Shown piece by piece: positions 4,647-32,906 of a DNA stretch of 41,210 bases; position 1 is the stretch's first letter, and the number at the start of each line of letters is the position of its first letter. Origin of the DNA: a virus; IMG/VR virus record IMGVR_UViG_3300031507_000020, positions 1-41,210 of that record; one strand, 5' to 3'. The notes beneath the pieces were generated by a model. That model had not been told where the DNA came from. It searched no databases and was given only the letters and a program-made list of their open reading frames with translations. The position numbers and the translations under genes were made by a program.

Positions 4647-5038
4647 CAGACGACCGATTTAAGCGGCACTGCGCCCAGTTCGCCGAGCCGATCGAGCATC
4701 CGGCGCTGCACCTTGACCGATTCGATGAACTGCCGTTGCAGATTGGCGGCCTCTTCGACCGGATCGACCGGCTTGCATTCATAGCCGGCACTGTCGGCGA
4801 TGAAATCCATCGCCGCGTGGCAGTTGGCCTTGCGCCCTTCACGCATCAGCCAAAGCACATGCTCCGGCTCGAAACGCTCCCGCCTGTCCGCGTTCAAGCA
4901 ATCCCGCACCCAGCGCGCCGCCTCGTCAACCGTTTTCTCAGGGCGGATTGCCGCCCCCACTTTCTTCGCGCCGCCCAGCGCGCCCACCAGCTCAACCAGC
5001 GCGTCGTTCAACGTCTCATGGAACAGCTTTGGCTGCAT
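4646..5038 (-). CDS. CII-like phage regulatory protein (CP76 type)
   Basis: 130 residues resembling the phage CII/CP76 regulatory family: LVELVGALGGAKKVGAAIRP, a PEKTVDEAARWVRDCLN segment, EPEHVLWLMREGRK, then PVDPVEEAANLQRQF. Such proteins set the lysis-lysogeny choice by activating repressor and integrase promoters. I chose the ATG at 5038. Its ribosome-binding site is an unusual run of eight G residues (complement of 5040-5047) one base before the start, and a 16-bp perfect hairpin sits just upstream. The gene follows the Cro-like gene and a terminator, as cII does in lambda. A longer reading from 5167 would run through both hairpins and is unlikely. Confidence 0.65.
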   Translation of the reverse strand: MQPKLFHETLNDALVELVGALGGAKKVGAAIRPEKTVDEAARWVRDCLNADRRERFEPEHVLWLMREGRKANCHAAMDFIADSAGYECKPVDPVEEAANLQRQFIESVKVQRRMLDRLGELGAVPLKSVV

Positions 5039-5048
5039 TCCCCCCCCT

Positions 5049-5087
5049 TGTCCGCGCGTGTCCGTAATTTGCGGACACGCGCGGACA
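5049..5087. promoter_or_regulatory. Perfect 16-bp inverted repeat upstream of the CII-like gene
   Basis: TGTCCGCGCGTGTCCG (5049-5064) and its exact complement (5072-5087) flank a 7-base AT-rich loop. There is no T-run on the minus-strand side; instead it is followed by the G8 tract and the start codon. It could be a translational control hairpin or a protein-binding palindrome. Confidence 0.55.
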
Positions 5088-5138
5088 GACAAAAATTGTT
5101 TAAAAAAAGAGACTTGTTCTTGTTTACGGAATAAAGGG

Positions 5139-5164
5139 CCGGGATGCTCTTTCAAGCATCCCGG
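5139..5164 (-). terminator. Terminator after the Cro-like gene, tR1-like
   Basis: Ten-base perfect stem (CCGGGATGCT / AGCATCCCGG) with a 6-base loop. On the minus strand it is followed by GCCCTTTATTCC. It lies between the Cro-like and CII-like genes, the position of tR1 in lambda. The T-run is short, so partial read-through is likely. Confidence 0.55.
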
Positions 5165-5206
5165 CAATCCAGCACCAGGAGGCGGACTGCTGGAGGAGAC
5201 AAATCG

Positions 5207-5428
5207 TTAGATAGCGACATCAGCAACCATCGTTTTTGACCGGCGAATTCCCTTGAAATGGTCGTAAAGCATTTGAATTTTGTTTACCGAGGGATCTTTG
5301 ATGCGACCTTGCGTGAGCTTTGCAAGCCATGAGTAGTCGATGCCCTCAACAGCCGCACAGATATCAGGCAGGCGCCCCTTCCTGCGCGCGAGTTCGGCCA
5401 GGACAAATTCGAGCATTGCTGGTTCCAT
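5207..5428 (-). CDS. Cro-like helix-turn-helix repressor
   Basis: About 73 residues. The segment LPDICAAVEGIDYSWLAKLTQGRIKDPSVNKIQMLYDHF fits a small XRE-type helix-turn-helix protein (helices, then the PSV...L..Y pattern). It is transcribed away from the CI-like gene under the leftward promoter at 5437-5476, whose inner operator touches its start region. Starts at 5437, 5428 and 5416 are possible; 5428 lies close to the predicted transcription start and no clear ribosome-binding site exists, so the message may be nearly leaderless. The role as the early switch protein follows from position opposite the repressor. Confidence 0.65.
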   Translation of the reverse strand: MEPAMLEFVLAELARRKGRLPDICAAVEGIDYSWLAKLTQGRIKDPSVNKIQMLYDHFKGIRRSKTMVADVAI

Positions 5429-5436
5429 GGGCGGCA

Positions 5437-5476
5437 TTAGGCAATAAATTGCCCGCTGCTGTCAAGCAACTTATTG
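5437..5476 (-). promoter_or_regulatory. Leftward early promoter (pR-like) with two operators
   Basis: On the minus strand TTGACA (5460-5465) is followed 17 bases later by GCCTAA (5437-5442). One operator, GGCAATAAATTGCC (5440-5453), covers the spacer and -10 box. A second, CAATAAGTTG (complement of 5467-5476), sits one base before the -35 box. The same layout recurs at the rightward promoter near 6797-6836. Confidence 0.65.
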
Positions 5477-5490
5477 ACGGATTTTTTTCA

Positions 5491-5496
5491 TATGAT
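5491..5496 (+). promoter_or_regulatory. Possible -10 box of the repressor maintenance promoter
   Basis: TATGAT, a near-perfect -10 box, lies 7 bases before the ATG at 5504. The matching -35 position (about 5468-5473) is poor and lies within the outer operator, as in lambda pRM. This would give a leaderless repressor message. Inference from spacing. Confidence 0.4.
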
Positions 5497-5503
5497 TAGC
5501 AAT

Positions 5504-5998
5504 ATGTTGCCAACTGCCGCGAAAACTATCCTGGCGACCAAGGTTAAGGCCTTGGTCGAGGCGTCTGAACTTACGCGAGAGGAAATCGCGCGTCGTGCCG
5601 GCGTCGGCGACGGGACCCTCGGCTATATCATGTATGGGAACGGCAACCCAACGATCGACAACATCGAGAAGGTGGCCCGGTTTTTCCGCCGATCCGCAGC
5701 TGACTTGCTCAGCCACGAAGAAGCCACCGCGGGCGAGCCGCTAATTGCTCAAGAAAATCTCGCGCTCTACAACGAGGACCCGAGAATTAATAGACTGATC
5801 GCTCTTTTTCACCGCCTGCCCACCGCCGATCAAGAGGAATTGCTCGAGGAGATGAGCGCTCGCGCGACGAAATATGAGGGCATCATTGCTGAATTGACTG
5901 AACGAAAATCTAGCGCAGTGCATGCATTCAAGCCTACGATCTCAGACGGTGATACAGAGAAAAAATTGAACCTGCCGAAAAAGGGGAAGCGAAGCTAG
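5504..5998 (+). CDS. CI-like repressor, XRE helix-turn-helix
   Basis: About 164 residues. The helix-turn-helix spans roughly residues 10-65: KVKALVEASELTREEIARRA, then VGDGTLGYIMYGNGNPTIDNI, then VARFFRRSAADLL. A short C-terminal part (NRLIALFHRLPTADQEELLEEM) is probably for self-association; there is no LexA-like peptidase domain, so induction cannot work by RecA-stimulated self-cleavage. The start at 5504 fits a TATGAT -10 box and a leaderless message; 5492 (four residues longer) and a TTG at 5474 are alternatives. It faces the Cro-like gene across the operators, which supports the immunity repressor role. Its stop overlaps the stop of the convergent lipoprotein gene within a GCTAGC palindrome. 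Confidence 0.8.
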   Translation: MLPTAAKTILATKVKALVEASELTREEIARRAGVGDGTLGYIMYGNGNPTIDNIEKVARFFRRSAADLLSHEEATAGEPLIAQENLALYNEDPRINRLIALFHRLPTADQEELLEEMSARATKYEGIIAELTERKSSAVHAFKPTISDGDTEKKLNLPKKGKRS

Positions 5999-8836: not shown

Positions 8837-10513
8837 ATGACCACTGAAACTCTCGACAAGCCGGCCGCCGCGGCCGCGCCCGCTGCGCCCACATCCACCA
8901 TCCTCCCACTCGACCAGCTTTTCGCCAGCCCCACCCAGCCCCGCAAGACCTTCAACGAGCAGGCGCTGCGCGAGTTGGCCGAATCGATCAAGGTCGATGG
9001 CGTGCTCCAGGCCATCCTGGTGCGCCGCGTCGACGGCCACAAGCCGCCCTTCGAGATCATCGCCGGCGAGCGCCGCTGGCGCGCCTCCAAGCTGGCCGGC
9101 GTGGCCACCATTCCCGTCACAGTCCGCGAACTCAGCACCGCCCAAGTGGTGCGCCTGCAGCTGATCGAAAACCTGCAGCGCGAGGATCTGCACCCGATGG
9201 AGGAAGCCGAAGGCTACCAGCGCATGGTGCGCGACCACGGCTATACGGCGCCGGCACTGGCCAAGGAAATCGGCAAGAGCAAGGAATACATCTACGGCCG
9301 CATGAAACTCACCGCGCTCTGCCAGGGCCCCCGGGCGGCCTTCCTCAAGGGCGATCTCGCGTTTTCCAACGCGCTGCTGCTGGCGCGCATTCCGGTCGAG
9401 AAGCTGCAACTCAAGGCACTCAAGGAAGTCCTGGACGGCGACAACACCGACTTCTACACCAACGGCGAGCCGCTCTCGAACCGCCAGGCCTCCGAGCACA
9501 TCCGCGACAACTACATGCTCGAGCTGAAGGGCGCGCCCTTCGACCACAAGGCCATCTATTTCCGCGACCCGACCGGCCTCAAGCCGATCGACTCTTGCGA
9601 GAAATGCCCCAAGCGCACCGGCAACCAGCCGGAATTGTTCTCCGACGTAAAAGGCGCCGATATCTGCACCGATCCGGAATGCTTCGGTGTCAAGCGCGAC
9701 GCGCACTACACCAAGGTGCGCGAGGAGGCCAAGCGCGAAGGCAAGAAGGTGATCGCCGGCGCCGAGGCGAAGAAGCTGATTCCATATGAAAACAGCCGGG
9801 TCCAGGGCGGCTATGTCTCGCGCGATTCGCTCGGTGAATTCTGGGACGGCGACAAGCACATCAACCTGATCAAAAAACTCGGCGACAAGCTCCCGGCGCC
9901 TGCATTGATCGAGAACCCGCACAGTCATGCCCTGGTCGAGGCCTATGACGAGGCGCTGATCAAAAAGGCCGCCAAGGACGCCGGCATCGAGCTCGGCCGC
10001 AGCAGCTCAAGTTCCAGCTCAAATGACACCCAGAAGGCCGCCGAGAAGCGCGCGCGCCTGGAAACCGAGATCCGCCTGGCCATCCTGGGCGGCATCATCG
10101 CCGCCCCCCCGCTCGACTTCGAGTCGCTGCGCCACATTGCCGATCACGCCTTCCACAGCATCGGCCACGACAACATGAAGCGCCTGTGCAAGGTCTATGG
10201 CTGGGAAATGCCGGGTTGGAACGCGCCTGTAAAGGAACTCGAAGCCTTCGACGCCACGCAGCTCGGCGCGCTGATCCTCTCCTGCTCGCTGATCGGCCAT
10301 TGTCACGTCAACAGCTACGGCAACGACGGCAAGCCGGAGATTCTCCACGCGACTGCTGCGCGTGCCGGCGTGGATTTTCAGCGAATTCGCGACGAGATGA
10401 AAGCCGCGGCGGCGGCAAAGGCCAAACCCGCTGCGCGCGCGGCCGGAAAAACCGCCGCGAAACCCAAGGCAAAACCAAAAGTGAAGCCCGCTAAAGCGGC
10501 CACGAAAAAGTAG
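8837..10513 (+). CDS. ParB/RepB/Spo0J-family protein
   Basis: 558 residues. The N-terminal ParB domain is clear: LPLDQLFASPTQPRKTF, the GERRWRA box at 77-83, ENLQREDLHPMEEAEGY at 111-127, and a helix-turn-helix at about 137-160 (TAPALAKEIGKSKEYIYGRM). A middle region carries several cysteines (CEKCPKRT, CTDPECFG) that may bind zinc. The C-terminus is an alanine-, lysine- and proline-rich tail. No ParA ATPase gene is visible, so this is an orphan. It may act as a DNA-binding CTP switch in regulation or replication rather than in segregation, although a plasmid-like state cannot be excluded. Confidence 0.85.
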   Translation: MTTETLDKPAAAAAPAAPTSTILPLDQLFASPTQPRKTFNEQALRELAESIKVDGVLQAILVRRVDGHKPPFEIIAGERRWRASKLAGVATIPVTVRELSTAQVVRLQLIENLQREDLHPMEEAEGYQRMVRDHGYTAPALAKEIGKSKEYIYGRMKLTALCQGPRAAFLKGDLAFSNALLLARIPVEKLQLKALKEVLDGDNTDFYTNGEPLSNRQASEHIRDNYMLELKGAPFDHKAIYFRDPTGLKPIDSCEKCPKRTGNQPELFSDVKGADICTDPECFGVKRDAHYTKVREEAKREGKKVIAGAEAKKLIPYENSRVQGGYVSRDSLGEFWDGDKHINLIKKLGDKLPAPALIENPHSHALVEAYDEALIKKAAKDAGIELGRSSSSSSSNDTQKAAEKRARLETEIRLAILGGIIAAPPLDFESLRHIADHAFHSIGHDNMKRLCKVYGWEMPGWNAPVKELEAFDATQLGALILSCSLIGHCHVNSYGNDGKPEILHATAARAGVDFQRIRDEMKAAAAAKAKPAARAAGKTAAKPKAKPKVKPAKAATKK

Positions 10514-10567
10514 CCGTACCACCCTCTCGCATTTCAACCCGCTGCGTCAATGAACAGGAGCAATAAA

Positions 10568-11182
10568 ATGAATGCACCAGAAACCAAAATCGCCCTTCCG
10601 GCCATCGGCGCTCCGTTCGCCGGCGGCTTCTTCATCGGCGTCCTTGAGGTCGGCGGCACCAGGTTCGCTCAGATCTGCGCGCCCAAGGCCGAAGGACTGG
10701 CCAAGCCGGCGACCTGGAACGAGTCCTGGAAGGCCATCGAAGGCGCCATGAGCCATCACGACGGCCTGGCCAACACCGAGGCGATGGCGGCCGCCGGCAG
10801 CGAACTGGCGCGGTGGGCGCGCGCCCAGACTATCGGCGGTTTTTCGGACTGGGCCATACCGGCGATCGACCAGCTGGAGCTGCGCTACCGCATCGGCAAG
10901 CCCACGACCCGGCCGAACGCCTGCTGGTATCGCTCCGGCATCAACATCAGCGCCTGCCCGCCCACACCGCCCTATACGCCGGAATTCCCGGCGCAAAGCG
11001 AGATCGCGATCTTCCGCGAGGGCGGCGCCGAGGCGCTCGAAGAGGAATGGTATTGGACCTCTACGCAGTACGCCGGCGGCAGCGACTGTGCCTGGGTTCA
11101 GCTCTTCGGCTACGGCGGCCAGGACGGCGTTCTCAAGTCGCGTTCCTACCCGGCCGTCCTCGTCCGCAGCCAGATCATTTAG
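10568..11182 (+). CDS. DGR target protein 1 (DUF1566-like variable protein)
   Basis: 204 residues. The second half has the DUF1566 / C-type-lectin-like pattern used by many DGR targets: DGLANTEAMAAAGSELARW, EEWYWTSTQYAGGSD, AWVQLFGYGGQ, then SYPAVLVR at the end. Residues 166-201 are encoded by variable repeat 1. The variable positions match AAC, AAT and other A-containing codons of the template. The ATG at 10568 has AGGAG 7 bases upstream; 10550 lacks this. There is no signal peptide or membrane segment. It is paralogous to the next gene. Ligand and location are unknown; known relatives are displayed on virions or cell surfaces. Confidence 0.85.
   Translation: MNAPETKIALPAIGAPFAGGFFIGVLEVGGTRFAQICAPKAEGLAKPATWNESWKAIEGAMSHHDGLANTEAMAAAGSELARWARAQTIGGFSDWAIPAIDQLELRYRIGKPTTRPNACWYRSGINISACPPTPPYTPEFPAQSEIAIFREGGAEALEEEWYWTSTQYAGGSDCAWVQLFGYGGQDGVLKSRSYPAVLVRSQII
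11063..11169 (+). repeat. DGR variable repeat 1 (VR1)
   Basis: 107 bases, the same length as the template at 12350-12456. By direct alignment there are 17 differences, and all 17 lie at template A positions (to T, G or C); non-A positions are identical. The last 26 bases match the template exactly and would hold the initiation site for mutagenic homing. Confidence 0.95.
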
Positions 11183-11185
11183 TCC

Positions 11186-11198
11186 TTCAACCCTTCGA
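11186..11198 (+). repeat. 13-base motif downstream of VR1
   Basis: TTCAACCCTTCGA begins 17 bases after the end of VR1. The identical motif begins 17 bases after VR2 (11741-11753) but is absent after the template. It may be a target-only cis element of the DGR or a scar of target-gene duplication. A partial copy (TTCAACCC) is at 10533. Confidence 0.5.
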
Positions 11199-11215
11199 TC
11201 ATTCGGGAGATTTTG

Positions 11216-11740
11216 ATGAGCAAAAAACCAGCGCCGGCGAAGCCGGCCGAAAAAAATTTCGAGCGCCTTTCCACGCCGCGCATAGGCGCCGCCTGGAAAG
11301 GCCAGGGCGGCTTCCTGCTCGGCGTCGTCCGCGGCGAAGGCGAGCAGCTGGACTACTGCCTGGTCAAGCCGCCGGAAGGCGTCGCGGCGATCGCCGGCGT
11401 CTGGGGCCAGACCACGCGCCTCGCCGGCGCCAAGAGTGAATACGACGGCATGGCCAATACCCGCGCCATGGCCGAGGCCGGCAGCGAGATCGCCAAGCAG
11501 GCCCTGGCACTCGAATTCGAAGGCCACCGCGATTACTACATCGCCGCCAGGCACGAGGCCCGCATCGCCTACGCCAACTGCTCCAACCTCTATGAGAGCC
11601 GCTGGTACTGGACGTCGACGCAGTACGCCGGCGACAGCGTCTATGCCTGGATTCAGCGCTTCGGCAACGGCGGCCAGTACGACGTTCACAAGTCGTATTC
11701 CTACCCGGCCGTCCTCGTCCGCAGAATTCCCATTCGCTAA
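11216..11740 (+). CDS. DGR target protein 2 (DUF1566-like variable protein)
   Basis: 174 residues, paralogous to target 1 in the C-terminal half: YDGMANTRAMAEAGSEIAKQ, SRWYWTSTQYAGDSVYAW, then SYPAVLVRRIPIR. Residues 135-170 are encoded by variable repeat 2. The N-terminal part differs from target 1 and begins with a lysine- and proline-rich stretch. The ATG at 11216 follows GGGAG with good spacing. VR2 is closer to the template (11 changes) than VR1 (17), so it was either rewritten more recently or under less selection. No secretion signal is seen. Confidence 0.85.
   Translation: MSKKPAPAKPAEKNFERLSTPRIGAAWKGQGGFLLGVVRGEGEQLDYCLVKPPEGVAAIAGVWGQTTRLAGAKSEYDGMANTRAMAEAGSEIAKQALALEFEGHRDYYIAARHEARIAYANCSNLYESRWYWTSTQYAGDSVYAWIQRFGNGGQYDVHKSYSYPAVLVRRIPIR
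11618..11724 (+). repeat. DGR variable repeat 2 (VR2)
   Basis: 107 bases aligned to the template at 12350-12456. There are 11 differences, all at template A positions; the other bases are identical, including the last 26. Confidence 0.95.
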
Positions 11741-11753
11741 TTCAACCCTTCGA
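11741..11753 (+). repeat. 13-base motif downstream of VR2
   Basis: Second copy of TTCAACCCTTCGA at the same 17-base distance from the end of its variable repeat as the copy at 11186-11198. Confidence 0.5.
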
Positions 11754-11777
11754 CAGAATTAGAAAAATTTTTTCAGC

Positions 11778-12179
11778 ATGGCTCTCCATACCGACACCCA
11801 GATTTACGGCGCCTGCATCGAGCTTTTCGGCGCCGCCGTCGACGTGATCTTGAATATGCGCAGGGACGTGAAGCACACCCTGGGCGGCAAGATCATCGAC
11901 GCCTGCACCGACCTCGACAAGCACATCCGCCGGGCCAACATGGCCAGCGACAAGGTGCCGCACATCGAGGCCTTGCTCGAGCGCCTGGAAGAGGTTGAAT
12001 TCGTAACGCGCATGTGCCGCGATCGGCGCTTCATTCCGACCACCGGCTACGCGAAACTGATTCTCCGCACCCAGTCAATTGGCAAGCAGGCAAACGGCTG
12101 GAAGAAGTTGGAGATGGCGAAGCGGCAAGAGCAACCTGGCCTGTTCCAGTATCGTCAAGGCGACCCTGGCCGTGCCTGA
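11778..12179 (+). CDS. avd: DGR accessory variability determinant (Avd-like)
   Basis: 133 residues, helical throughout: CIELFGAAVDVILNMRRDVK, IDACTDLDKHIRRAN, HIEALLERLEEVEFVTRMCR, then AKLILRTQSIGKQANGWKK. Size, basic helices and position between the target genes and the template match the Avd four-helix-bundle proteins, which form a pentameric barrel and bind the DGR reverse transcriptase and template RNA. No strong ribosome-binding site precedes the ATG at 11778. The 3' end overlaps a possible upstream extension of the reverse transcriptase frame. Confidence 0.8.
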   Translation: MALHTDTQIYGACIELFGAAVDVILNMRRDVKHTLGGKIIDACTDLDKHIRRANMASDKVPHIEALLERLEEVEFVTRMCRDRRFIPTTGYAKLILRTQSIGKQANGWKKLEMAKRQEQPGLFQYRQGDPGRA

Positions 12180-12333
12180 TTTTAATCTGGTCACGCCGCT
12201 GGCCACCAGCTCACCGGTGACCACCGACATGCGCACCACGGATACCACCGGCCAGCTGGATCTATTCAGCCACCCGGCCAGGTCTGGCGCAGTTGCCCCG
12301 CTGACAGGCGATTTCGGCCCTCGGCGCGGCGAC

Positions 12334-13572
12334 ATGGATAGCGTGAATGACGCAGAACGCCGGCAACAGCGACTATGCCTGGATTCAGAACTTCGGCAAC
12401 GGCAACCAGAACAACGATCACAAGTCGAATTCCTACCCGGCCGTCCTCGTCCGCAGATTGAACCGCCCACCCCGCCTGCTGATTTTTCTTTCGACCTCCT
12501 GGTGCAGGCATATCTCGACTGCCGCCGCAACAAGCGCACCAAGCCCAGCGCGCGCGACTTCGAGATCGGCCAGGAGGCCAACCTGTGGCACCTATATGCG
12601 GCGCTGCGCGATGGCACCTACCAGCCCGGCCGCTCCATCTGCTTTGTCATCACCAGGCCGAAGCCGCGTGAGGTCTGGGCGGCGCCGTTCACCGATCGCA
12701 TCGTCCACCATCTGCTCTACAACAAGGTGGCGCCGCGCTTCCATGCCGGCTTCATTGCTGACAGCTGCGCCTGCATTCCAGAGCGCGGCACCATGTACGC
12801 CGGCGGCCGCCTTGAGGCGAAGATCCGCAGCGTCACCCACAACTGGGCGCGGCCGGCGTGGTATCTCAAGTGTGACCTGGCCAACTTCTTCGTCTCGATC
12901 GACAAGCAGGTCCTGTTCCGCCTGCTGGCCAGGCGCATCAGTGAACCGTGGTGGCTGGCGATCGCCGGCGCCATCCTGTTCCACGATCCACGGCCGGACG
13001 TGCGCCTGCAGAGCCGCCCGGCCGCGCTCGCCCTGGTGCCGCCGCACAAGAGCCTGATGAACCAGCCGGCCGGTTTCGGCCTGCCGATCGGCAACCTCTC
13101 CAGCCAGTTTTTCGCCAACGTACTGCTCGACGCCCTGGACAAGCACGTCAAGCACCAGCTGCGAGCCCGGCACTACATCCGCTACGTCGACGACTTCCTG
13201 ATCCTGCATGAATCGAAGGCCCAGTTGCTCGCCTGGCGCGACGAGATCACCGCCTGGTTGCCGCGCGAACTCAACCTGCGCCTCAACCCGGCCAAGACCC
13301 TGCTGCACCAGATCGACCGCGGCGTCGACTTCGTCGGCCATTGGATCAAACCCTGGTATCACACCACCCGCCGGCGCACCCTGCGCAGCGCCCTGCAGCG
13401 CCTTGCGTCCGCCGACGCCGGCGACGTGCACACCACGGCCAACAGCTACTTCGGGATGTTGCGCCAGGTCCCGCATGGCCACCGCGACCGCGCGCGGCTG
13501 GCCAACCTGGTGCGCGATCGCGGACACGCGGTCGACGGGGCACTGACCAAAACCTATCGGAGGTATCCATGA
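12334..13572 (+). CDS. DGR reverse transcriptase
   Basis: 412 residues from the ATG at 12334. Landmarks are: PKPREVWAAPFTDRIVHHLL and FIADSCACIPERGT in the fingers; YLKCDLANFFVSIDK carrying the first catalytic aspartate; IGNLSSQ at 252-258, the DGR-type form of motif 4; and YVDD at 284-287 with the other two aspartates. It copies the template RNA with errors at adenines and feeds the cDNA into the variable repeats. The start is uncertain: the frame is open back to 12079, GTG at 12172 and ATG at 12229 are possible, and the template lies inside the first 42 codons. The conserved protein begins only near DFSFDLLVQAYLDCRR. Confidence 0.92.
   Translation: MDSVNDAERRQQRLCLDSELRQRQPEQRSQVEFLPGRPRPQIEPPTPPADFSFDLLVQAYLDCRRNKRTKPSARDFEIGQEANLWHLYAALRDGTYQPGRSICFVITRPKPREVWAAPFTDRIVHHLLYNKVAPRFHAGFIADSCACIPERGTMYAGGRLEAKIRSVTHNWARPAWYLKCDLANFFVSIDKQVLFRLLARRISEPWWLAIAGAILFHDPRPDVRLQSRPAALALVPPHKSLMNQPAGFGLPIGNLSSQFFANVLLDALDKHVKHQLRARHYIRYVDDFLILHESKAQLLAWRDEITAWLPRELNLRLNPAKTLLHQIDRGVDFVGHWIKPWYHTTRRRTLRSALQRLASADAGDVHTTANSYFGMLRQVPHGHRDRARLANLVRDRGHAVDGALTKTYRRYP
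12350..12456 (+). repeat. DGR template repeat (TR)
   Basis: 107 bases that align without gaps to VR1 and VR2. Read in the target frame it contains seven AAC codons and one AAT codon, the usual design because mutation of both A positions gives many residues and never a stop. It holds 30 A residues, of which 17 are changed in VR1 and 11 in VR2. It lies between avd and the reverse transcriptase core, overlapping a possible 5' extension of the latter in another frame. Confidence 0.95.
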
Positions 13573-14000
13573 GCACCAGACCAGACGGCTTTGCTGTGAC
13601 GATGGCCGACGGGTGGTTCGTCGGCATCTGGGACGATCGCCAAAACGCAGATCTCATCGTCGCCAAGGGCAAGCCAGCGGACGGCAGAGTCGTGCGGCCG
13701 ATGGTGTTCGCCGATGCGTTGCCGACGCACATCATCCATTTCAGCGGCGAGGGCGCTGAGGTGATCCTCTGCTTCGGATGGGAGGATTGCAAGGCGAAGT
13801 TTTTCGCCGGCATTTACGGCCACATCGACGAATTTGACCAGGAGGAAGTGAAATTCTGGTGCGCGCTTTTCGCCAATCCTGACGAATGGACGCGCGATGA
13901 GGCCGGTAACCTGTTCAGTTGGGGCAATGATATTGGCGAGATCTCGCACGCCTGCATCCTGCAGGTCACGCCAACGCCCGAGCCGCCGGAGCGTCCATGA
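13569..14000 (+). CDS. Hypothetical protein downstream of the DGR reverse transcriptase
   Basis: 143 residues with no recognised family. It looks globular and mixed alpha/beta (GFAVTMADGWFVGIWDDRQN, then HFSGEGAEVILCFGWED, then EEVKFWCALFANPDEW). No signal peptide, membrane segment or nucleotide-binding motif is visible. Its ATG overlaps the stop of the reverse transcriptase gene (ATGA), so it is translationally coupled to it and may be a DGR accessory gene or simply the next operon member. Confidence 0.65.
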   Translation: MSTRPDGFAVTMADGWFVGIWDDRQNADLIVAKGKPADGRVVRPMVFADALPTHIIHFSGEGAEVILCFGWEDCKAKFFAGIYGHIDEFDQEEVKFWCALFANPDEWTRDEAGNLFSWGNDIGEISHACILQVTPTPEPPERP

Positions 14001-14296
14001 CCACCTCCATCGCCCGCAAGATCGCCTACGTCAAGAGCCAGGACCAGACTCGCGCGCACCATTGCCACTGGCCCGGCTGCAGCAAGCAGGTCCCGCCGGC
14101 AAAGTGGGGATGCTTCGAGCATTGGAAGAAGCTCCCCAAGCGCATCCGCGACCGGATCTGGGCCGCTTATCAGCCTGGCCAGGAAAAGACGCTCACGCCA
14201 TCGGCCGAATACCTGGCGGCCGCGCGCGAGGCCAAGGCGTGGGTACTGGCCAATCACCCGCCGGCGACGACACCGCAATCGAACCTGTTCGCATGA
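13997..14296 (+). CDS. Small protein with a probable zinc-binding cluster
   Basis: 99 residues. The segment HHCHWPGCSKQVPPAKWGCFEHWKKLPKRIRDRIW holds three cysteines and several histidines spaced like a small zinc site. I recognise the pattern as common in betaproteobacterial phage genes of unknown role. It overlaps both neighbours by 4 bases. A nucleic-acid-binding function is plausible from the basic helix after the cluster. Confidence 0.6.
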   Translation: MTTSIARKIAYVKSQDQTRAHHCHWPGCSKQVPPAKWGCFEHWKKLPKRIRDRIWAAYQPGQEKTLTPSAEYLAAAREAKAWVLANHPPATTPQSNLFA

Positions 14297-14499
14297 ATCC
14301 CGACCAGCCACCCATCACCTGCGTCAAGCTGTCGAAGTGGTGCGCCACCACCGACGACACCTCCGACGCCGTCCACGCCAGACGCAAGCGCCGCGAGTGG
14401 GTCGATGGTGTACATTGCCACCTCCGCGGCGGCGTGCTGTGGATTGATACCGTGGAGGCGCAAAAATGGATCAAGGGACAAGACAAAATCGCGGCGTGA
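14293..14499 (+). CDS. Possible excisionase (Xis-like)
   Basis: 68 residues. VKLSKWCATTDDTSDAVHAR followed by a basic helix and WVDGVHCHLRGGVLWIDTVE fits a small winged-helix excisionase, in which a final tryptophan/aspartate strand is common. It starts in an ATGA overlap with the preceding gene and overlaps the integrase start by 34 bases, as xis and int genes often do. Excisionases bend attachment-site DNA and direct integrase toward excision; the role here rests on position and size. Confidence 0.6.
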   Translation: MNPDQPPITCVKLSKWCATTDDTSDAVHARRKRREWVDGVHCHLRGGVLWIDTVEAQKWIKGQDKIAA

Positions 14500-15677
14500 C
14501 GGTCCGGAAGTTCAAGACCGAGCAGCGCATCCAGATTGCCTTCAGCTACCGCGGCGCCGAGTGCCGCGAGCTGATGCCGCCCTGCAAGATCACCGAGGCG
14601 GCCAAGACCCACGCGGCAGGCCTTCGCGCCGAGATCCTGCGCAAGATCGCGGCCGGCATATTTGTCTATGCTGACTATTTCAAGGATTCGCCGCGCGCGG
14701 AGATCTATGGCACCAACCCGTCACGCCAGACCGTCGGTGAGCTGCTGCGGGCCCAGCGCACGACCTACCGGCACCAGGCCGCCAACGGCACGCTCTCCCC
14801 ATCGACCCTGGCCGGCTACGAGAAGGCCATCAAGGGCAAGCTGCTCGGCCGCTGGGATCAGACGCTCCTGGGCGACGCGACGCCGGCGGCGCTGCGCGAC
14901 TGGATTGGCGGCCTGGGCATCACCGCCAAAAGCTCGAGGAATATCCTGACGCCGCTCCGGTCGGTGTTCGAGGACGCGCTCAATGACGGGCTGGTCCTGT
15001 TCAACCCCTTCGATCGGATATCGCTCAAGAAGCTGCTGAAACAGACCGCCAAGGCCAGCGAGTATGAGGTCGACCCGTTTGACCACGCCGAGCGCGACGT
15101 GCTGCTGCGCGCCTGCAGGAGCGACGAGCGGGCCATGCTGCAGTTCTGGCTCAACACCGGCCTGCGCCCGGGCGAGCTGATCGCCCTGGAATGGCCGAAG
15201 GTAGACTGGGTGCATACGTGCGCACGCGTCGACCTGAATCGCGTGGCCAAGGTCGACAAGGCGCCGAAGACCGAAGCCGGCATCCGCGACGTCGAGCTGA
15301 ACGAGCCGGCGATCGCCGCCTTGACGGCGCAGAAGGAAGCGACCTTCCTGGCCAACGGCCGGGTGTTTCTCAACCCCAGGACCGGCGAGGCCTGGGACAC
15401 CGATGCCCAGCTCCGGAAGACCTTCTGGGAGCCGCTATGCAAGCGCGCCGGCGTGCGCTACCGCAACCCCTACCAGGTGCGCCACACCTACGCCAGCGCG
15501 GCCCTGACGGCCGGCGCCAACCCATTCTGGCTGGCCAACCAGCTCGGCCACGTCGACGGCGAGATGGTGTTCAAGATCTACGGCAAGTGGATCCCGGCCG
15601 ACTACAAACAGGCCAAGTTTGCACGCGCATCGGATGCTGTAATCGAGACGGCTAAGCTGGCGCTGGTAAAGACTTAA
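14466..15677 (+). CDS. int: Tyrosine recombinase integrase
   Basis: 403 residues. An N-terminal arm-binding domain (RIQIAFSYRGAECRELMPPC, DUF3596-like), a core-binding SAM-like domain at about 88-190, and the catalytic domain. Catalytic landmarks are R234 (NTGLRPGEL), R339 (YQVRHTYAS), H362 (LGH) and the probable nucleophile Y372 (IYGKW). The first box-II residue is Y rather than H, as in several phage integrases. It integrates and excises the phage at attP just downstream (core near 16064-16088). Its last 20 codons are duplicated at 15960-16022. Confidence 0.93.
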   Translation: MDQGTRQNRGVTVRKFKTEQRIQIAFSYRGAECRELMPPCKITEAAKTHAAGLRAEILRKIAAGIFVYADYFKDSPRAEIYGTNPSRQTVGELLRAQRTTYRHQAANGTLSPSTLAGYEKAIKGKLLGRWDQTLLGDATPAALRDWIGGLGITAKSSRNILTPLRSVFEDALNDGLVLFNPFDRISLKKLLKQTAKASEYEVDPFDHAERDVLLRACRSDERAMLQFWLNTGLRPGELIALEWPKVDWVHTCARVDLNRVAKVDKAPKTEAGIRDVELNEPAIAALTAQKEATFLANGRVFLNPRTGEAWDTDAQLRKTFWEPLCKRAGVRYRNPYQVRHTYASAALTAGANPFWLANQLGHVDGEMVFKIYGKWIPADYKQAKFARASDAVIETAKLALVKT

Positions 15678-31077: not shown

Positions 31078-32634
31078 TTAAGTGCCCATCGGCGCGAAGC
31101 CGCTCGGCACCGCGTCGCTAAAGTCGCCGGTGTTGGTATGCAGACGCCACTTGTTGCCTGCACCATTGAAGATGGAAACGGCCAGGGCAATGCGATGCTT
31201 GGCGTCGATGCCTGTGATCCACGGATTGGTGCCGCTCGCCGGATCGCCGGAATTTGGCCACGCGGCGCCGGTCTTGCCGACCCATGCCTTGCCTGTGGTC
31301 TGATCGACCGCGAATTTGATACGGGTGCCGGCAGTGATCGTGCCGATAGAAACCGCGTTCGCCACGGTCCAGCCCGTGACACTGTTCGGTTGTCCGCCCC
31401 AAACGGCCGCGCCTTTGGTTCGGGCTCCAAATATGGCGCCCGAGTTTCCCATATAGGTCGAGCTGTCCAGAAAAGGCGCGGTGATGCCTGCCATCATGTT
31501 GGTCTGGCTGGCAACGGCAACTGCCTCCATCTCGGCATAGAATTTTTCGCCGATGCGCCCACCATTGGCGATGGCGCTCTTCCAATTGCTGGCAGCGCCG
31601 CCCGTGATATCGAGATTGCTGTTGCTCACTACAAAATCGCTAACCGGCACGTCGATGGCCGGCCAGGTCACGGCGCTGCGCGTGTTGAGCAGCGCCGCCT
31701 GATAGGCAATCCAATATTGCGCCGCGAACAAACGTTGCTCGGCGGCGGTGTAGTGGACGTTGCTGGTCCCCATGCCATTGTTGACGGCAAAGCCGGTGTA
31801 GGGGACGCGGTTCACCAGCTCCTGGTTGACCTTGTCCTGGATGACGCCTTCGGTCCCGAAGTTGGCACCGCCGGCATCCACGCTCCAGACGGTTACCTGT
31901 CCTTGCACCCACGGCAGATTCGGCACGCTCAGCCCCGAGGAAGAGCGCACCAGATCGATCAATGCGGCGAGATACGCCCGCCGGATGTCTTGCCTGTTCT
32001 GGATCTGAAGCGCTGTCGGATTGGGTGGTACGAACGGCGGTACCCAGTTGATCTGATAGTCACCCTCGCCCTGGTGAAACAACACTGCCTTGTATTGCGA
32101 GCCGGCACCGGCAGCAGCCAACGCGAGCGGTGCCCGGGTAATGAAATCGGTCCAGAGAAAGCCATCGGTGCCGCCGTTGATGGTGCTTGGCACTAACTTG
32201 TCTATGCCCTGGCCACCGTAGGAGTTGCCGCACAGCAGCATCCTGCGGCCACCCGCCGCGTTGGGCTTGTAGTAGTCGCGCAGGAAATGCATGTCGTGCC
32301 CGATGTAATTTCCGGGCGGCGTGTTATTGACGCCACCGACGTGATTGCCGTCATCCCGAAAATCGAGCGGCTCCTGCGCGGCGAAGATCGCATTGGCGTG
32401 CGGCGCGTTGTAACCGAACTGGAAGATGCTTGGGTCGGTCAGGTCGATCGACCCATCGTAGAAACCGCCGAAGAAAATGTTCGACTGGCCGTAGGGCATG
32501 AAAATATCGTAACCCGCCGGGGCGCCAAATGGACCTCCGGTGCCCGGTACGCTGACGCTCGGACCAACAGATAGTTCGCAGGCACCGCGCCGGATGGGCT
32601 CACCAATCCAGCGACGACCTGAGGCGCGAGACAT
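31078..32634 (-). CDS. SGNH-type carbohydrate esterase, candidate head spike
   Basis: 518 residues. The N-terminal domain shows the sialate O-acetylesterase-like SGNH blocks: GQSN at 49-52, HQGEGD at 187-192, and H294 in SNVHYTA. Such enzymes remove acetyl groups from glycans. The C-terminal part from about 370 is strand-rich, with IKFAVDQTTGKAWVGKTGAA like a SPRY or lectin-type fold. The ATG at 32634 sits 3 bases after a gene resembling the RcGTA head-spike base protein. Both lie among head connectors, not with the tail fibre, so this is probably a virion-mounted esterase acting on the host capsule or O-antigen. The location on the head is inferred. Confidence 0.75.
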   Translation of the reverse strand: MSRASGRRWIGEPIRRGACELSVGPSVSVPGTGGPFGAPAGYDIFMPYGQSNIFFGGFYDGSIDLTDPSIFQFGYNAPHANAIFAAQEPLDFRDDGNHVGGVNNTPPGNYIGHDMHFLRDYYKPNAAGGRRMLLCGNSYGGQGIDKLVPSTINGGTDGFLWTDFITRAPLALAAAGAGSQYKAVLFHQGEGDYQINWVPPFVPPNPTALQIQNRQDIRRAYLAALIDLVRSSSGLSVPNLPWVQGQVTVWSVDAGGANFGTEGVIQDKVNQELVNRVPYTGFAVNNGMGTSNVHYTAAEQRLFAAQYWIAYQAALLNTRSAVTWPAIDVPVSDFVVSNSNLDITGGAASNWKSAIANGGRIGEKFYAEMEAVAVASQTNMMAGITAPFLDSSTYMGNSGAIFGARTKGAAVWGGQPNSVTGWTVANAVSIGTITAGTRIKFAVDQTTGKAWVGKTGAAWPNSGDPASGTNPWITGIDAKHRIALAVSIFNGAGNKWRLHTNTGDFSDAVPSGFAPMGT

Positions 32635-32636
32635 TT

Positions 32637-32906
32637 CTACCACTCCGCGATCAGATTTGTCGCGGTCGTTCCGGACGCATTGACTTTTTTCGCGCGGCAA
32701 CCGATATAGCTGCCGGCCACGCAATTTTTGTAGAGCAGGGTCGTGCCGGCCTTGGTGACCAGCGAGACATCGCCGGCGACACCGACATAGATGCGGCGGC
32801 TGAAGTAGGCGAACTCGACGTCATTCACGATCGCCGCGGCGTCGTCGCCGACCAGGTTGCCCAGCGCCGGCGGCGTGCCCTGCGGCTGATACTCGACAGC
32901 GGCCAT
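32637..32906 (-). CDS. Spike base protein, RCAP_rcc01079-like
   Basis: 89 residues. The C-terminal two thirds (RRIYVGVAGDVSLVTKAGTT, NCVAGSYIGCRAKKVNASGT, then TATNL) match the small proteins that anchor head spikes in the Rhodobacter gene transfer agent and in many phages. It directly precedes the esterase gene, so the two probably form one surface spike. Confidence 0.7.
   Translation of the reverse strand: MAAVEYQPQGTPPALGNLVGDDAAAIVNDVEFAYFSRRIYVGVAGDVSLVTKAGTTLLYKNCVAGSYIGCRAKKVNASGTTATNLIAEW

Follow-up and report, generated by a model that had tools for sequence, protein, structure and literature searches.

Two targets of one phage DGR template, each followed by a phased octamer array: a candidate mark of recipient repeats

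Introduction

The diversity-generating retroelement (DGR) of Bordetella phage BPP-1 (mtd, avd, TR, brt) has the order target-Avd-TR-RT, changes confined to template A positions and a GC-rich VR end, and it serves one target, the Mtd tail protein. BPP-1 targets need a hairpin or cruciform behind the VR, and sites of this type are described as a GC-rich hairpin that has a 4-nt GRNA loop and lies no more than about 35 nt from the VR (PMC3240598). In BPP-1, a 4-bp spacer tolerates sequence changes without loss (PMC3240598), an argument against its sequence having a role there. A recent study of BPP-1 places the target in a single-stranded state during lagging-strand synthesis, with the stem-loop prolonging this open state; how the DGR cDNA finds its target is incompletely understood (PMC12875486).

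DGRs with more than one VR are already known, 271 of 948 in one survey (PMC6642488) and about a seventh in another (PMC3521204), and both describe single templates with several targets, DUF1566-type targets included, as here. A TR overlapping the RT is likewise a described layout (PMC3521204). The two-target phage DGRs of the tentaclin type (nd4, nd12; PMC10743442) also combine one TR with two C-lectin targets that have different VRs; their target1, however, carries its VR near the N-terminus and has Ig-like domains, whereas in the present locus both VRs are C-terminal and both variable proteins (VPs) belong to one family. Burkholderia phage Magia carries a DGR of the same clade as ours by RT (61%), with two adjacent targets, genes 047 and 046. 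In the Magia paper, the possible targets are genes 47 and 57 (PMC7883833); in the sequence record, 047 is noted for a lectin fold and 046 is annotated as hypothetical.

Here we analyse a window of 41,210 nt, the IMG/VR record IMGVR_UViG_3300031507_000020, which by gene content comes from a contractile-tail phage. What is new in it is a recurring pair of long-type (L) and short-type (S) targets and, above all, a phased array of octamers behind the VRs. Neither was found in the available parts of PMC6642488 and PMC3521204. For repeats behind VRs, we found no description in the literature, including what was accessible of PMC3240598, PMC12875486, PMC3521204 and PMC5006420; a 2018 survey (PMC5758913) may hold one.

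Results

Genes for terminase, portal, protease, capsid, sheath, tape measure and a Mu-like baseplate lie on the minus strand of the window; ParB-like and integrase genes, from a Pfam search, are carried by its plus strand. The DGR lies between these two groups, away from the tail genes, with all its features on the plus strand in the order VP1-VP2-Avd-TR-RT. VP1 (10568-11182, 204 aa) and VP2 (11216-11740, 174 aa) both match phrog_4245 (E 5.6e-24 and 6.2e-26) and are of the L and the S type, respectively. They are followed by the accessory protein Avd (11778-12179; phrog_3206 'Avd protein of DGR', E 5.2e-21; PF22296 bAvd, E 8.1e-10 and 39.6 bits, just below the cut-off of 40), by a structured RNA between Avd and TR (RT-15, Rfam RF03018, 12135-12353, 134.3 bits, E 1.2e-31), by the TR (12349-12457, from an ungapped TR/VR search) and by the conserved part of the reverse transcriptase (12490-13572; phrog_1423, E 1.2e-106; PF00078, 54 bits, cut-off 29.6). 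No sigma-70-like promoter was found in 10400-14500. Amid the structural genes, a 548-aa open reading frame on the minus strand (31078-32724) matches the Pfam family SASA, a carbohydrate (sialic acid) esterase family.

VR1 (11063-11169) aligns to template positions 12350-12456 and VR2 (11617-11725) to 12349-12457. The original prediction had counted 17 and 11 changed A positions, and these numbers hold exactly: of the template A, 17 of 30 differ in VR1 and 11 of 31 in VR2, with no change elsewhere. Also as predicted, the two proteins end in the common frame WYWTSTQYAG...SYPAVLVR and differ in their N-terminal parts, the bodies being 38% identical here and 33% on average across 31 loci. With an RT, TR/VR pairs that differ at A only and an Avd, the element is almost certainly a two-target DGR. 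A tentaclin-type N-terminal VR is not present in the window, where both VRs lie at gene ends.

To place the locus among its relatives, we collected 29 loci by VP2, 1 by VP1 and 33 by RT from viral contigs, 7 more by RT from genomes, and phage records. An ungapped, A-biased TR/VR finder, which recovers the BPP-1 pair (17 of 23 A changed, no other change), was run on 78 records, leaving out L001, a piece of the window itself. Because the family HMM drifted into wrong-frame reading frames of the RT region, only VPs with a VR ending no more than 70 nt from the stop codon were retained. In 61 loci we found VPs that carry VRs, and 46 of these loci have two or three targets (copies included); two targets per template are usual in the clade of the window. 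Identical copies (L003/L004, L012/L013, L020/L047, L045/L063/L068) were removed for the dereplicated counts. Across the 40 two-target loci left after dereplication, 1,057 of 2,544 A cells depart from the template as compared to 17 of 5,582 non-A cells, a pattern that is not due to chance.

The reading frame of the RT is open through the RT-15 RNA and the TR (12061-12490 in the window), and near the conserved RT start an in-frame ATG, GTG or TTG is found only before the TR or at +12. Counting copies, 43 of 45 loci keep the frame open across the TR, and 38 of 45 have no such codon between the TR and +6 of the conserved RT. Since a usual start codon is missing there, the TR is probably translated in part as a leader of the RT. 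Stops in the Avd-TR gap number 18 in the RT frame as opposed to 92 and 84 in the other two (39 loci). Conserved dual coding of the TR as an RT leader is nevertheless not supported, because substitutions in this gap are not codon-like (0.26/0.29/0.33 by codon position, against 0.25/0.22/0.51 in the RT control) and a quarter of the aligned columns are out of phase; codon-wise constraint on the putative leader appears weak.

We then compared VPs of the same type whose bodies are at least 80% identical. Of 20 such comparisons, 14 involve identical copies, and differences are seen in the other 6. Two pairs of related loci, with bodies 91–98% identical, differ at A sites in both VRs, in agreement with the proposal that one template serves two targets: 13/32 and 12/34 A sites and no others between L076 and L078 (Pseudomonas phages Haboob and phPA-G), and 16/32 and 17/30 A sites, with 1 and 2 non-A differences, between L019 and L021. 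Invariance of one target among relatives, the finding that the original prediction had set against itself, is thus contradicted. The S type differs between L040 and L041 (14/35 A sites, no others, beside an identical body of 299 nt) and the L type between L055 and L071 (14/32 A sites, 4 non-A). By these sequence comparisons, which bear indirectly on active mutagenic homing, both targets appear to be live in the relatives; a close relative of the window phage itself was not found among the related loci.

The lower number of changes in VR2 of the window (11 vs 17) would fit a second target that has decayed or is no longer used. This reading is very improbable, as the S-type VRs (the second figure of each of the first two pairs, and L040/L041) differ between close relatives at 12/34, 17/30 and 14/35 A sites with only 0, 2 and 0 differences elsewhere. 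Nor does the unequal degree of change stand as a meaningful feature, as had been proposed. The window is the most unequal of the 40 dereplicated two-target loci (10 A sites are changed in both VRs, with 7 more in VR1 alone and 1 in VR2 alone; exact McNemar p about 0.07), but across these loci neither order nor type biases the change: the fraction is 0.422 in the target farther from Avd and 0.410 in the nearer one (p = 0.45), and 0.409 in long and 0.416 in short types (n = 30, p = 0.57). The contrast of 17 and 11 is therefore best read as a snapshot.

Independent searching by the two receptors, which the prediction had raised, is borne out in its outcome. Where the same template A is changed in both VRs, the two carry an identical base in 141 of 329 cases (42.9%), compared to 41.9% expected from composition, indicating that each VR is written separately; copying between VR1 and VR2 is rejected by the same figure. 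The choice of sites changed in both VRs is correlated (odds ratio 4.5, 40 loci). Within codon and position the odds ratio drops to 1.61, so the correlation is mostly codon context; the highest of 500 permutations gave 1.41, which leaves a small excess beyond codon context.

As VRs are overwritten from one TR, bodies without VRs were used to classify the VPs; a tree of whole proteins, which put some VPs next to their locus partner, was not used. VP1 falls in the L class with 234 vs 75 bits. Long and short types occur together in 36 of the 46 multi-target loci (30 LS, 3 SLS, 2 SL, 1 LLS; copies included), and 30 of 40 adjacent pairs after dereplication are LS or SL. In L064, the long-type domain stands at the end of a 643-aa protein that looks like a candidate tail fibre.

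Modelled alone, VP2 reaches a pLDDT of 92.6 and a pTM of 0.85, and is predicted to adopt a C-type lectin fold whose C-terminal strands are spanned by VR2. Its best structural match, and the closest solved fold, is the C-terminal domain of Legionella Lcl (8q4e; Z 12.7, rmsd 2.6 over 120 residues, 19% identity over the aligned part), which is also the sole sequence match under E 0.01 and, unlike VP2, is not known as a DGR target; 4eps follows with Z 11.7. Against Pfam Lcl_C (PF07603, formerly DUF1566), VP1 scores 31.1 bits (E 3.2e-7) and VP2 21.6 bits, both under the curated cut-off of 34.9. VP1 was modelled as the first half of a read-through VP1-VP2 chain (mean pLDDT 82.4, pTM 0.69), whose structural matches fall mainly on residues 223–390, the VP2 half. 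VP1 shows the same C-terminal strand order as VP2 in this model, and its lectin fold is suggested by homology (phrog_4245, Lcl_C). Both VPs are very probably lectin-like binders; their ligands would most likely be host-surface receptors, or other surface ligands if the proteins are made by the lysogen.

The pairing of types raises the possibility that VP1 and VP2 form one two-part receptor, a heteromeric lectin in which co-diversification searches paired binding faces. The recurrence of the L and S pair is consistent with this, as is covariation of the two bodies over and above that with the RT (31 loci; partial r 0.27, permutation p 0.0005), although linkage also explains such covariation. 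A natural VP1-VP2 fusion (L058:1841-3067, a 408-aa reading frame with two VRs and a VP2 without its own start) hints at a common complex, but it comes from a single metagenomic contig and may result from an indel error. Loci with a single type, 10 of the 46 with several targets (7 SS, 2 LL, 1 SSS; copies included), argue against it, independent A-site outcomes require no matched faces, and the pTM of the read-through chain is neutral. We therefore regard the two-part receptor as somewhat doubtful, and a physical complex of VP1 and VP2 as a possibility that the balance is tilted against to the same degree.

An 8-nt rhythm was first noticed in the 3' flanks of the VRs. Behind VR1, the octamers ATTTAGTC CTTCAACC CTTCGATC (11177-11200, 27.8 bits) and, behind VR2, the octamers ATTCGCTA ATTCAACC CTTCGACA (11732-11755, 23.0 bits) both start 8 nt past CCGCA. 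The TR ends in CCGCAG as the VRs do and has no octamer array behind it.

The same feature recurs throughout the clade, where the loci are related and the counts hence not independent. Period-8 self-match in the 45 nt behind 98 VRs is 0.425 vs 0.260 in shuffled sequence (z 23); it is 0.224 behind 55 TRs and 0.256 in the DNA 60–105 nt behind the VRs. At least three in-phase [AC]TT[CTG] units are present in 64 of 98 VR flanks, in none of 55 TR flanks and in none of 98 control stretches (0.12 expected). A weight matrix built from these arrays, and thus partly circular for them, gives 98 matches of at least 18 bits in 69 loci, none of them on the minus strand although both strands were scanned. Of these matches, 74 are located no more than 60 nt behind a matched VR, 21 others follow CCGCA and a VP-like end, and 3 are stray. 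Conversely, 17 of 98 VR flanks score below 14 bits.

The array is locked to the end of the VR. It starts 8 nt past CCGCA in 51 of 70 cases, and in 88 CCGCA-anchored flanks a TT pair stands at +9/10, +17/18 and +25/26 (74–91% per base), with column information near zero beyond +32. TT is in register in all three units in 56 of 88 anchored VRs and in none of 47 TRs; 17 of the 88 have no unit in register. In L016, two VP-type reading frames (4728-5237 and 5268-5753) bear the IMH and the array and have no matched VR in the TR/VR scan, and a third beside them has one; they may be targets of another or changed template, or their VR was missed.

As a stand-alone detector, the array fails. The bare motif ATTYARTM in three copies occurs at 40 sites in all viral contigs of IMG/VR; 2 of these are DGRs, copies of one locus, and the other 38 are AT-rich tandem repeats unrelated to DGRs. 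Anchored to the IMH, the motif matches at least 120 stretches, of which 80 were analysed, and the specificity of this search owes much to the IMH letters. The matches listed contain 87 anchored sites, 55 of them with a TR/VR pair in the locus (mean 13.2 A changes, and 8 non-A changes overall). Counted by another key, a VP-type reading frame precedes 83 of 85 sites among the matches listed, 6 of the 85 coming from the earlier loci and 79 not among the first loci; of the remaining two, one is truncated at the end of its contig and the other (L270) matches no VP profile but has a TR/VR pair.

By its position, the array is where the GRNA-loop hairpin of BPP-1-type targets would lie. No BPP-1-type hairpin is present in the 60 nt behind either VR of the window (stem of at least 5 bp, 60% GC, loop of 3–8, 10 or 12 nt); the VR2 flank holds an AT-rich inverted repeat of 7 bp with a 12-nt loop. 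Hairpins with a stem of at least 6 bp and a 4-nt loop within 70 nt occur in 7 of 98 flanks of the clade, none with a GRNA loop, as compared to 31 of 63 flanks of other DGRs, 26 with a GRNA loop (63 flanks from 102 loci scanned, L079-L180). The GRNA-loop hairpin of BPP-1 was recovered by the same approach; the BPP-1 VR flank has an 8-bp hairpin with a GAAA loop and no octamer array (-25 bits). Hairpins as such are not absent from the clade: with loops of 3–6 nt and stems of at least 7 bp they are found in 16 of 98 flanks, far above the 0.3 in shuffles.

Behind the VRs of the other DGRs a rhythm is also present (period 8, z 8.1; period 7, z 7.3; period 15, z 6.0). Lying at the same place, it suggests that the array may be the strong form of a wider feature.

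Discussion

Our data raise the question of whether the array has a function at all. As the loci are homologous, shared descent or replication slippage beside the VR could have left it there, and the units within an array are slightly more alike than units of different arrays (0.66 vs 0.60). Against such an origin, L and S bodies are only 0.33 identical and both bear the array, targets kilobases away bear it as well (L054, L070), the column profile shows three sharp TT pairs and is flat elsewhere, and other DGR clades have a periodicity of 7–8 nt at this place with other letters. We consider an array of this kind, with no function, unlikely.

A second possibility is that of an ordinary multi-target DGR with duplicated targets, where the array is a safety stretch of stop codons for rewritten VRs that have shifted frame. 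Stops in all three frames result when every unit of an 8-nt repeat contains one, and such stops are found within 34 nt in 34 of 88 flanks (6.4 in shuffles) and in 23 of 56 in-register arrays (6.7 in column shuffles). The first unit often contains the stop of the gene itself, which ends 14–20 nt past CCGCA in 78 of 88 flanks. The number of stops per flank, however, is barely in excess (2.18 vs 2.01, sd 0.10), and 26 of 56 in-register arrays keep their TT pairs and have no stop in the last two units, nor have the window arrays in units 2 and 3. A fixed register to CCGCA would also be unnecessary for stops. We rate this explanation as rather unlikely, if a little less so than an array with no function.

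Whether the array takes part in target recognition, as a tag of recipients, we consider an even question. Weighing against it are the VRs that lack any unit in register, the poor specificity of the bare octamers and the tolerance of BPP-1 for changes in its 4-bp spacer. The more specific proposal, that phased octamers locked to the IMH end address the targets of this clade in place of the hairpin, perhaps as a general feature of recipients and perhaps read on single-stranded DNA, is tentative and stands just short of even. In the mechanism that we propose, the DGR would sit on the early or lysogeny side of a temperate contractile-tail phage genome, and the TR would be transcribed together with the RT-15 RNA. 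The RT with Avd would copy the template, erring at template A as in BPP-1, and the copies would overwrite the 3' ends of the adjacent VP1 and VP2 genes in separate events. A recipient would be marked by the shared GC-rich end (IMH, ...GTCCGCAG) and by an in-register 32-nt set of four octamers, GATTNNNN followed by three NTTYARYM-like units. With its own octamer set at each target and none at the TR, which has the same IMH letters, a single template could act on two or three targets in one direction. The T-rich octamers could, speculatively, bind a protein on single-stranded DNA, in a role like that of the stem-loop. For the account as a whole, comprising a two-target DGR, lectin-type targets and an IMH plus array that mark the recipients, we lean cautiously towards acceptance.

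If the array is an address, DGRs with several targets are simply explained by each target bearing its own tag, and the direction from TR to VR gains a second mark besides IMH/IMH*. Any gene could then in principle be made a target by adding an IMH and an array. Compared to BPP-1, the DGR of the window differs in its RT-15 RNA and its two L and S targets. Both members of such a lectin pair are diversified in sequenced phages, which makes it directly testable why phages diversify two proteins.

Outside the clade, the periodicity of 7–8 nt lies between the VR and the hairpin, for instance as AATCTGGC-like units in Faecalibacterium phage Lagaffe. Finally, gene 046 of phage Magia (L074:4897-5361) carries a VR in which 11 of 27 template A are changed, with no other change.
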